Source of the DNA: an uncultured Bacteroidota bacterium
Lineage (GTDB): Bacteria; Bacteroidota; Bacteroidia; Chitinophagales; Chitinophagaceae
Length of the DNA stretch: 64,000 nucleotides
Reading direction: 5' to 3'
NCBI GenBank assembly: GCA_903824665.1
Contig: CAIJXT010000003.1
Location: 169,477-233,476 of the forward strand
Shown here: piece after piece, positions 25,659-29,603 of the stretch
Layout: every line of letters starts with the position of its first letter
Numbering within the stretch: position 1 is the stretch's first letter
Notes under the pieces: generated by a model
Database searches by the model: none
What the model was told of the DNA's origin: nothing
What the model saw: the letters and a program-made list of their open reading frames with translations, nothing else
Position numbers and translations under genes: made by a program

Positions 25659-26519
25659 TTATTCCTCATTCTGCTCCCTTGCCTCCCTAAGCTTTCTTGC
25701 CTTTACGGCGCGGCCGCTAATCTTGACAGAAATCTCGAAGAGGATGTACAATGGTACAAATATGAGCAGACAACTGAACACATCGGGCGGTGCAATAACC
25801 ATAGCCAGTATGAACAGTATGAGGAACGCATAGCGGCGGCGGGCACGGAGAAACTCGGGCGTGAGGATGCCGATACGGGTGAGAAAGTAAACCAGCATGG
25901 GCAACTCGAACACTACACCAAGGGCAATGACGAGATTGCTCATGGTATCATAATAATTGTCTATGGTGATGATATTCTCGAACAGTGGGCTGAGCTTGTA
26001 ATTGCCAAAGAAGTTGATGGTGTAGGGAGCCACTATAAAGTAGGCGAACATAACGCCCATAAAAAACAACAAAGAGCACCAGAACACGATACCCCGGGCT
26101 GCCTTGATCTCGTTGGGCTTGAGGGCTGGGCGAATGAACTTCCAGAGTTCCCAGAGAATGTAGGGGAACATCAATACAAACCCCAGCATAAAGGATACAG
26201 ACAGACTCATCATGAACTGACCTGTGACGGCAGTGTTCTGAAATTTCATCTGTATCTCGTTCATACAGAACGATTCGGCGTGTAACAGCTTGCCCAGGGC
26301 GCAGAACATGCGGTAGGAGATAAACTCCTTATGTGCGGGGCCGAGGATGACGTGGTCAAATATCCACTCTACCTTCCAGAACACAAGGCAACCGCCGATC
26401 ATAATGGCTGTGGCTGCCCGTACAATATGCCAGCGAAGCTCCTCGATATGATCGAGGAAGTTCATTTCACCATTGGGGTTGGCGTTTCGTTTGTCCAGAA
26501 ATTTATCAATGAAGCTCAA
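25659..26519 (-). CDS. tatC: Sec-independent protein translocase TatC
   Basis: Polytopic inner-membrane receptor for twin-arginine signal peptides; works with TatA/B proteins encoded elsewhere. The N-terminus carries the conserved MNFLDHIEELRWHIVRA, followed by six hydrophobic segments. FMLGFVLMFPYILWELWKFIRPALKPNE and FELPMLVYFLTRIGILTPEFLRARRRYAF are characteristic. At 286 residues it is slightly longer than E. coli TatC, with an inserted loop (residues about 75-100) and a charged C-terminal tail. Confidence 0.95.
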   Translation of the reverse strand: MSFIDKFLDKRNANPNGEMNFLDHIEELRWHIVRAATAIMIGGCLVFWKVEWIFDHVILGPAHKEFISYRMFCALGKLLHAESFCMNEIQMKFQNTAVTGQFMMSLSVSFMLGFVLMFPYILWELWKFIRPALKPNEIKAARGIVFWCSLLFFMGVMFAYFIVAPYTINFFGNYKLSPLFENIITIDNYYDTMSNLVIALGVVFELPMLVYFLTRIGILTPEFLRARRRYAFLILFILAMVIAPPDVFSCLLIFVPLYILFEISVKISGRAVKARKLREAREQNEE

Positions 26520-26545: not shown

Positions 26546-26699
26546 GTTGTTTGAAAGGAGATATGCGGGTGTTGCAGGAATAAGGGAATGCGGTATTTGT
26601 ATATTGGTTTAAAAGGGTGAAGTAAGGATATTTGACTTGTGCCGGTAGTAGTTGGTTAATTACTAATAAATGACGCTAAAACTGTGTGGCCTGGCATTT

Positions 26700-26810: not shown

Positions 26811-26925
26811 TTGCTGCCTGAATGATATTGTTAAAATTTGATTTTGTGATCATGGCTTTGGTCTTAGGTATGAAGATCGGTTGCATTAGCGAAATACCCA
26901 AAATGGTTATTAGTGACAGCAGGCT

Positions 26926-27148
26926 AGCGGGATATGATATGACGCATGCTGCTTATGATAAAAATAGAAAGCGACTGTGGGCAAGGGTTTGGGGCGAAAA
27001 GTACTTATTTTTGGTGTTGCTATAGGTGTGTGAAAAAGCGTATGTGATGGTGTTGCTTCGCCAGTAGAAAAGACTGGCTGAAGTATTGGCACGGAAGCGC
27101 GACGCTTCGGTGAGAGAGGACGCAACAAGACGCTGCGACCAGGTAGGA
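26926..27148. repeat. Long direct repeat, copy 1
   Basis: First of two near-identical units spaced 232 bp apart, roughly 93-95% identical by eye. The unit contains an imperfect hairpin (CTTCGCCAGT ... ACTGGCTGAAG) and conserved blocks around gacgcatgctgcttatgata, gtttggggcgaaaag and gaggacgcaac. No coding capacity that I trust. Confidence 0.8.
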
Positions 27149-27157
27149 CAGCCAGCC

Positions 27158-27375
27158 AGCGGTATATGATACGACGCATGCTGCTTATGATAAAAATAGA
27201 AAGCGACTGTGGGTGAGGGTTTGGGGCGAAAAGTACTTATTTTTGGTGTTACTATAGGTGTGTGAAAAGCGGATGTGATGGTGTTGCTTCGCCAGTAGAA
27301 AAGACTGGCTGAAGTATTGGCACGGAAGCGCGACGCATCGGTGAGAGAGGACGCAACGAGACGCGACCAGGTGGG
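27158..27375. repeat. Long direct repeat, copy 2
   Basis: Second copy of the unit at 26926-27148, with scattered substitutions and small indels (for example agacgctgcgacc in copy 1 against agacgcgacc here). It ends about 190 bp before the ATPase gene. Confidence 0.8.
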
Positions 27376-27565
27376 AGCTTGTTTTATTTCGTCTGTTGAA
27401 AAGGTTGTATTGCTCAAACAACTTAGGTTCCCTGTCTCCGCCAGGTCTTGCGAAAGGGCGAAGACCCGGCGGAGAGATATGTATTTGTAAGCGAAATTCT
27501 AAATGTTGAATTTCAAAAAAGTGGTAATTTAGCACACGACAAGTTTTTTACACAAACTATTTTTA

Positions 27566-28870
27566 ATGGTTGGATCTGCTCTCTATATCGGGAAATTGAA
27601 ATTTGCAAATTGTCATTCATTTAAAGGCAATAACTTGATTGGTTTATTAGATAAAGAAAATCAACTATACCAATGGACTGTTTTCTTGGGAAATAACAAT
27701 ACAGGAAAAACCAATCTCCTTAAAGGAATCGCTGATTTGGAACCAATTGAAAATAGATTTGGCCCGAATGACGCTAAATTTGATTTCGTTCCGCTCAATA
27801 TGCATAGGGGCAATAAAATAAGGTACAATAATAGATTTGGAGCAAGTATAAGCGATAATTACTACGGATGTGAAATTGTGTCTGTTCAAATTGATGAAAA
27901 ATCCACTAATGTATCCCCATTTTCAGCCAAACCAGAGTTGTACACCAATCACTGGGAATTTTCACCGCTCGGTAGATGGAGTTCCTATCCAAATATTGAC
28001 ATACTAAATTTTCAAATATATGGGTATGGTGTGTCTAGAAGAATTTCAAAAAATGGCATATCAGAAAATAGCGAAGAACTGAATGCTGCTTCACTTTTTA
28101 ATCCAGACCATAAATTAACAAACATTGAAGAATGGCTTTTTCAGCTGAAATTTGCATCTCAGAATGGTCAGCCAACGGCAGAAACCAGATTAAATCTTAT
28201 AAAAGATTTAGTTGTTAGTGAAGTCTTCCCTGAAATACTGGATTTTAGATTTACTACAACGGATGATTTGAAGAATTTTATTGAGTATCAAACAAAAGAA
28301 GGCTGGTTTTTATTTGAAGAATTAGGGTACGGTTATCAGACAACACTTTCATGGATAATAGACCTATGTAAGAAGATGTTTGAACGTTACCCTACCTCTC
28401 CCAACCCCTTGACAGAACCCGCTGTCGTACTGGTTGATGAACTGGATTTGCATTTGCATCCGAAATGGCAAAAGTCCATAGTCGACTATTTGACAAAGAA
28501 TTTCACATCAACGCAGTTTATAGTAACAACACATAGCCCTCTATTATTACAAACGATTGAAAAGGTAAACCTGTTTGCGTTGATTAAAAAGGAGAATTCT
28601 GTCCTCATCAAACATATTCCAACGGAAAGTTTTGAAGGATGGAGTGTGGAGGAAATATTATCTGAAGTAATGGAGATGGAGGAAGGGGTGTTTAGTGACA
28701 AACACAATGCACTCTACAAAGAATTCGATGAGGCTTTAGACAAAGAGGATTACGAAAGCGCAAAAGCCGCTTTTGATAAACTCATGGAAATATTGCATCC
28801 CAAGAGCCCTGAACGAAAAATACTGAAATTGCAGCTCTCACAAATTACCCCTGTAGATGATAAAGCTTAA
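27566..28870 (+). CDS. ptuA: Septu-type AAA/SMC-like ATPase (PtuA-like)
   Basis: A 434-residue ABC/SMC-class ATPase of the OLD/RecF-like group used in defence islands. Walker A is GNNNTGKTNL at about residues 42-51, directly after beta-strands (IGKLKFANCHSFKG, WTVFL). The signature region is around EELGYGYQTTLSWI. Walker B is VVLVDELDLHLHPKWQ at about residues 287-302, followed by the switch motif FIVTTHSPLLLQ. The C-terminus is an acidic helical tail. The following HNH gene overlaps it by 14 bp in another frame, the arrangement of Septu systems, in which ATPase and nuclease form one complex. Codon use is clearly more AT-rich than that of the neighbours, pointing to horizontal transfer. Confidence 0.85.
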   Translation: MVGSALYIGKLKFANCHSFKGNNLIGLLDKENQLYQWTVFLGNNNTGKTNLLKGIADLEPIENRFGPNDAKFDFVPLNMHRGNKIRYNNRFGASISDNYYGCEIVSVQIDEKSTNVSPFSAKPELYTNHWEFSPLGRWSSYPNIDILNFQIYGYGVSRRISKNGISENSEELNAASLFNPDHKLTNIEEWLFQLKFASQNGQPTAETRLNLIKDLVVSEVFPEILDFRFTTTDDLKNFIEYQTKEGWFLFEELGYGYQTTLSWIIDLCKKMFERYPTSPNPLTEPAVVLVDELDLHLHPKWQKSIVDYLTKNFTSTQFIVTTHSPLLLQTIEKVNLFALIKKENSVLIKHIPTESFEGWSVEEILSEVMEMEEGVFSDKHNALYKEFDEALDKEDYESAKAAFDKLMEILHPKSPERKILKLQLSQITPVDDKA

Positions 28871-29603
28871 TCTGCCTGAAAAACCTGATTTATTGACCGA
28901 CGAATTAGTACGAGATTTAACGGCAAAATTTAAGGCTGAAGGTTCTGATGTCTGGAATGCGAAATTTATCAGAGAAGCAGTGCTAGCATTTTCTTACGGA
29001 AAGTGTTGCTATACTGAATGCAAACTAGATGAAGAAAGTAAATACATGGAGATAGATCACTTTTATGCAAAATCTGCTTTCCCTGACAAAGTTGTTGAAT
29101 GGGGAAATCTTCTTCCGTCAAGCAAAAAAAGCAATACAACCAAGGGAGAACACAACATCCTTACAAATCCAATAGTAAATCCATGTATTGACAACCCTAA
29201 AACGCATCTTTACATTTCAAACTACAGGTACTACCCTATAACCCGAATCGGTAAGGAAACTATTGAAGTAGTTGCCTTAAATGACAGGCAACATTTTGTA
29301 AACAAACGATCTAGGATTGGTCATCAAGTGTCAGAAATGCTGAACAACATCCATGATGAAATTGAAGACGAGGCAGCGACAATCATAGGCTCCCCGCGCA
29401 GGCAGAGAAAATTGGCGAAGAATCTGAAGAGCCTGATGCAGGAATCGACAAGGACAAATGAGTATTCAGCAACGATTTCTACAGTTATTTTGACTGATGA
29501 GTACTATCCAGCGATTGAACGTTTTTTTATTGATAATGGTTTTTGGGACGAGGAATTGACAGAGCTGAAAGTGGAATTGGAATTTTGCAGCCTTAGGAAG
29601 TGA
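28857..29603 (+). CDS. ptuB: HNH endonuclease of Septu type (PtuB-like, TIGR02646 family)
   Basis: A 248-residue nuclease predicted to cut phage DNA when activated by its ATPase partner. The HNH core reads GKCCYTECKL (residues 48-57), MEIDHFYAKSAFPD (catalytic His68) and WGNLLPSSKKSNTTKGEHN (Asn93), then NPIVNPCIDNP. In family members I recall, the last block has SCxxCN, supplying two zinc-ligand cysteines; here both are serine (S89, S92). The first pair is also altered (CCYTEC). The protein may have a metal-independent scaffold or weakened folding. The rest is helical and unassigned. ATG at 28857 overlaps the ATPase stop by 14 bp. Confidence 0.82.
   Translation: MIKLNLPEKPDLLTDELVRDLTAKFKAEGSDVWNAKFIREAVLAFSYGKCCYTECKLDEESKYMEIDHFYAKSAFPDKVVEWGNLLPSSKKSNTTKGEHNILTNPIVNPCIDNPKTHLYISNYRYYPITRIGKETIEVVALNDRQHFVNKRSRIGHQVSEMLNNIHDEIEDEAATIIGSPRRQRKLAKNLKSLMQESTRTNEYSATISTVILTDEYYPAIERFFIDNGFWDEELTELKVELEFCSLRK

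Follow-up and report, generated by a model that had tools for sequence, protein, structure and literature searches.

Septu defence systems combine PtuA, an ATPase, with PtuB, an HNH nuclease, and several have been described. According to PMC13096335, Septu EcB88 is abortive-infection-like in E. coli and depends on both its Walker and its H-N-H residues; its cut in tRNA-Tyr falls in the variable loop and is made on infection only. tRNA-Tyr is reportedly also depleted in the case of retron-Eco7 PtuAB, and PMC12887533 describes retron complexes as inactive until dissociated by phage infection. Here we analyse a stretch of 64,000 nucleotides from an uncultured Bacteroidota bacterium (contig CAIJXT010000003.1, positions 169,477 to 233,476), referred to as the window, in which ptuA and ptuB form a real, intact and laterally acquired Septu pair. 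The locus in itself is ordinary for defence biology, and its PtuB, otherwise mostly ordinary, stands at the far end of a lineage trend of loss of predicted zinc ligands.

ptuA (27566..28870, plus strand) encodes an ATPase of 434 amino acids and ptuB (28857..29603, plus strand) an HNH protein of 248 amino acids; both start with ATG, and the two frames overlap by 14 bp, as an initial annotation of this DNA had described. The same gene order, overlap, and combination of ATPase and HNH protein are found in type I Septu (PtuA1-PtuB1, PADLOC PDLC00304 and PDLC00342), with model matches that are nearly full-length, PtuA matching as an SMC/OLD-like ATPase and PtuB as an HNH nuclease. ptuA also lies directly upstream of ptuB in 71 of 72 relative loci. 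Together with the fold matches, the PADLOC matches support the Septu identity proposed initially. The pair differs from type I in two respects: its PtuB is without three of the four predicted zinc-ligand cysteines, and its PtuA carries the signature-like motif LGYGYQ.

The predicted zinc ligands correspond to positions 50, 53, 89, and 92 of PtuB, and only C50 is kept in the window. The first block reads CCYTEC (C50 to C55; 29004..29021, plus strand), with T53 in place of the second cysteine of the CxxC motif, and the second reads SKKSN (S89, K90, K91, S92, N93; 29121..29135, plus strand), exactly the substitutions that had been noted earlier; the four cysteines of [CxxC]2 zinc-site HNH nucleases are therefore not present. 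The residues at these positions were read in 99 of the 103 proteins of a first homologue set, giving CCCC (40), CSCC (21), CSSC (11), CSNC (11), CTCS (8), CSLC (4), CTSS (2), CSSS (1), and CSCS (1), and then in an enlarged set of 214. In the latter, C50 is invariant (214/214), C53 is found in 134 proteins, C89 in 173, and C92 in 200. All 134 rows with C53 keep both C89 and C92 and are thus CCCC, whereas among the 80 without C53, C89 is gone in 41 and C92 in 14. The loss is concentrated among close relatives: counting the window itself, the four cysteines are all present in 0 of 22 rows at 55% identity or more, 2 of 32 at 45-55%, 42 of 63 at 40-45%, and 90 of 97 below 40%, so that at 45% or more only 2 of 54 rows have the full set and 52 are without at least one.

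The initial annotation had called the cysteine loss unusual. This does not hold among near relatives, which naturally lack one or more of these cysteines, and a loss unique to the window is ruled out; it does hold across all homologues, most of which have the full set, and loss of both C89 and C92, like loss of three ligands, occurs in only 4 of 214 rows, window included. We infer that zinc is missing from the window PtuB. As C50 is invariant even where the other three ligands are gone, its conservation suggests a role other than zinc binding. The E. coli Septu PtuAB of PDB 8ee7/8eea is 14% and 19% identical to the window proteins in structural alignments; in a weak phmmer alignment (E 0.078), its PtuB chain (profile match, E 7.6e-6) shows CCYSE at the first site, SALDS at the second, and G opposite N93, and this solved PtuB would also be without three ligands if the register of that alignment is right. 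A literature search on zinc in PtuB, with incomplete coverage of print, found no paper on its zinc site.

A quick maximum-likelihood tree of PtuB, built with the cysteine columns under study excluded, places a minimum of 2 changes at position 53, 10 at 89, 4 at 92, and 9 at 244. The clades without C53 represent 37.5% of the tree length and contain 8 of the 10 changes at 89 and all 4 at 92, compared with 10/22, 9/26, 3/17, and 2/9 at the control positions 51, 55, 197, and 244. The other two changes at 89 probably fall on the stem branches of two small groups without C53. The nearest rows to the window on the tree read CSSC and CSNC, whereas P0020, the other row with CTSS, and P0027, which reads CSSS, cluster with CTCS rows; this loss of three ligands has thus probably occurred on more than one occasion. 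Support around the window is mixed, with Shimodaira-Hasegawa-like approximate likelihood ratio test (SH-aLRT) values from 5 to 99.

The residues expected to be catalytic show no such erosion. H68, the predicted HNH general base (29058..29060, plus strand), and N93, both pointed out initially, are invariant in the 214 PtuB rows, as are K96, K49, K72, and W82, ligand-poor rows included. N84 (29106..29108, plus strand; 213/214), which the initial annotation did not mention, probably provides the central N of H-N-H; in our own comparison, its spacing of 16 residues from H68 equals that of H75 and N91 in EcB88 PtuB, whose mutation abolished immunity according to PMC13096335. In PtuA, the Walker A and Walker B motifs recognized earlier were located at residues 42-50 (GNNNTGKTN; 27689..27715, plus strand), with K48 in 119 of 120 aligned homologues and a gap in the last row, and at residues 287-299, in a region that includes the D-loop (VVLVDELDLHLHP; 28424..28462, plus strand), with D291 and E292 in 120/120. 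Between them, LGYGYQT (residues 253-259; 28322..28342, plus strand) resembles an ATP-binding cassette (ABC) signature, a role inferred from its position; G256 and Y257 are found in 120/120 homologues and L253 and G254 in 119/120. LGYGYQ is nearly invariant among these 120 proteins, and retron Ec83 PtuA has LSQGEKT at this place in the alignment. The Walker and H-N-H residues are all intact in the homologue alignments, and we read the pair as intact and probably active.

We consider it likely that the locus is a type I Septu-like pair, that is, an abortive-infection nuclease system, whose PtuB functions without a zinc knuckle after stepwise cysteine loss. Following the literature on EcB88, retron-Eco7, and the retron complexes, PtuA would hold the PtuB nuclease in check, and phage infection would release PtuB from this control. 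Once free, PtuB would cleave nucleic acid; tRNA is the likeliest substrate, as the fold of PtuB is nearest to that of retron Ec78/Eco7 PtuB, and DNA is a possible one. PtuB would fold and cut without the knuckle, the lineage having presumably lost C53 first, then C89 and C92 in different branches, but neither C50 nor the catalytic residues. The natural PtuB series, with four, three, two, and one predicted zinc ligands and HNH residues fixed throughout, makes testable whether the HNH fold needs its zinc knuckle and, if the knuckle is dispensable, what replaces it; we see its decay in this lineage as a trend worth a small biochemical test.

Several observations weigh against this proposal. The PADLOC models for PtuA and PtuB match, but other family models score below their cut-offs: the NCBIfam retron Ec78 PtuA and PtuB equivalogs (NF041760 and NF041761) give 147.3 and 44.2 bits for cut-offs of 500 and 150, TIGR02646 gives 28.5 bits for 52.15, and Pfam HNH_4 is under its cut-off too, indicating that the pair is distant from the characterized retron effectors. 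The target cannot be read from the family, since PMC11555353 reports that of the E. coli ATCC25922 Septu to be DNA, not tRNA, and describes retron-Eco4 as likely not tRNA-targeting. Loss of the zinc site could also impair activity, given that PMC5304195 describes a general [CxxC]2 site as common to most HNH nickases. Lastly, when the tree is rooted on P0103, the C53-less rows form three groups (75, 4, and 1), and the 75-row clade has an SH-aLRT of only 74, so that the case for one initial loss is not firm.

The rarity of the three-ligand loss and the low HNH_4 score could mean that PtuB no longer cuts and that the pair is a decaying insertion. We find this improbable, as both frames are full length and overlapping, the conserved residues listed above persist in ligand-poor rows, and the same cysteine-loss pattern recurs in separate branches; the predicted PtuB model also has a predicted local distance difference test (pLDDT) score of 96.7, in itself no proof of activity. 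The constancy of C50 would also fit a rebuilt metal or disulfide site made of C50 and the C-terminal C244 (29586..29588, plus strand), with C51 or C55. Position 244 is Cys in 74 of the 80 C53-less rows and in 29 of the 134 C53 rows. This association rests on only 1 or 2 independent pairs on the tree that differ in C53, and we therefore make no claim that C244 compensates for C53; C244 also occurs alongside C53, and C51 and C55 are variable (22 and 26 changes), making such a site unlikely. We regard as quite unlikely the fuller scenario of a Bacteroidota-rich PtuB lineage that shed its need for zinc in a set sequence of losses (first C53, then C89 and C92), kept C50, and recruited C244 as a structural or redox partner, yielding a zinc-free, possibly redox-gated Septu nuclease.

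The relation to retrons also has to be weighed. The best fold matches for both proteins, and thus the nearest solved relatives, are the retron Ec78/Eco7 PtuA-PtuB effectors (9u9y, 9nnb, 9vh1), and retron Ec78 PtuA and PtuB are the best NCBIfam names, albeit below cut-off. Nevertheless, alignments show that the retron PtuB keeps CxxC, with CAYCE at the first site, the retron PtuA has about 550 residues against 434 here, and no reverse transcriptase was found with the window pair. A search of the whole genome with PF00078 (reverse transcriptase) gave no match, with 3 of 14 control genomes positive, which rules out a retron-Septu hybrid, as initially concluded. With an estimated genome completeness of 99.42%, the already disfavoured idea that the two genes serve as effectors of a retron with its reverse transcriptase at another locus is very improbable indeed.

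The composition of the pair looks foreign, as suspected from its AT-richness: its G+C content is 37.1% (PtuA 36.1%, PtuB 38.7%), compared with 47.4% for the window and at least 42.4% for equal-length stretches more than 1 kb from the pair (1118 positions within the window). It is flanked by tatC (25659-26519, minus strand) on the ptuA side and rimP-nusA (29780 onward) on the ptuB side, names given from reading translations, and synteny was tested with the neighbour proteins. A RimP search over 60 related genomes was positive in 53 and provided 30 loci. Two of these, L003 and L005, are from the same genus and have tatC adjoining rimP without the pair, the aligned parts being 137 and 135 bases apart, versus about 3.26 kb in the window; the remaining loci show no tatC within the roughly 1.5 kb or less examined upstream and have no bearing on the empty site. 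Of 35 genomes of the genus, 3, the source genome among them, have strong matches to PtuB over its full length (E <1e-90), and 9 more have only weaker matches. This sporadic presence and the empty sites support lateral acquisition.

The sequences flanking the insertion align to the L003 intergenic stretch as far as position 26555 or so and again from roughly 29753; by eye, no clean target repeats were seen at these ends against L003, the upstream repeats falling inside the insertion. These repeats, at 26915-27376 just upstream of ptuA, are two tandem copies of a 231-232 bp unit, 93-97% alike, parts of which recur at 19 further places in the genome (20 rows when its own is counted), making it a dispersed repeat. 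A defence island around the pair is not supported by a PADLOC scan, which gave no match at 1e-10 in 10 other window open reading frames, the only ones scanned of 60 of at least 180 amino acids, many of them spurious.

Other PtuB relatives were also seen. Burkholderia phage KS9 (FJ982340.1, 2955-3632; H12, H13) encodes one that is 29% identical, and the NC_013055 record names an HNH endonuclease and an AAA family ATPase under this match. In Alkalihalobacillus deserti (L111, 4001-4713), PtuB is matched in pieces, the longest starting at residue 55, which may reflect a frameshift or a diverged start. Finally, the source genome itself contains two weak PtuB relatives (G000:C35:58911-59579, loci L045 and L051, E 2e-8; G000:C15:182962-183177, locus L050, E 6e-7), each near a PtuA-like stretch, and may hold further Septu-like pairs.
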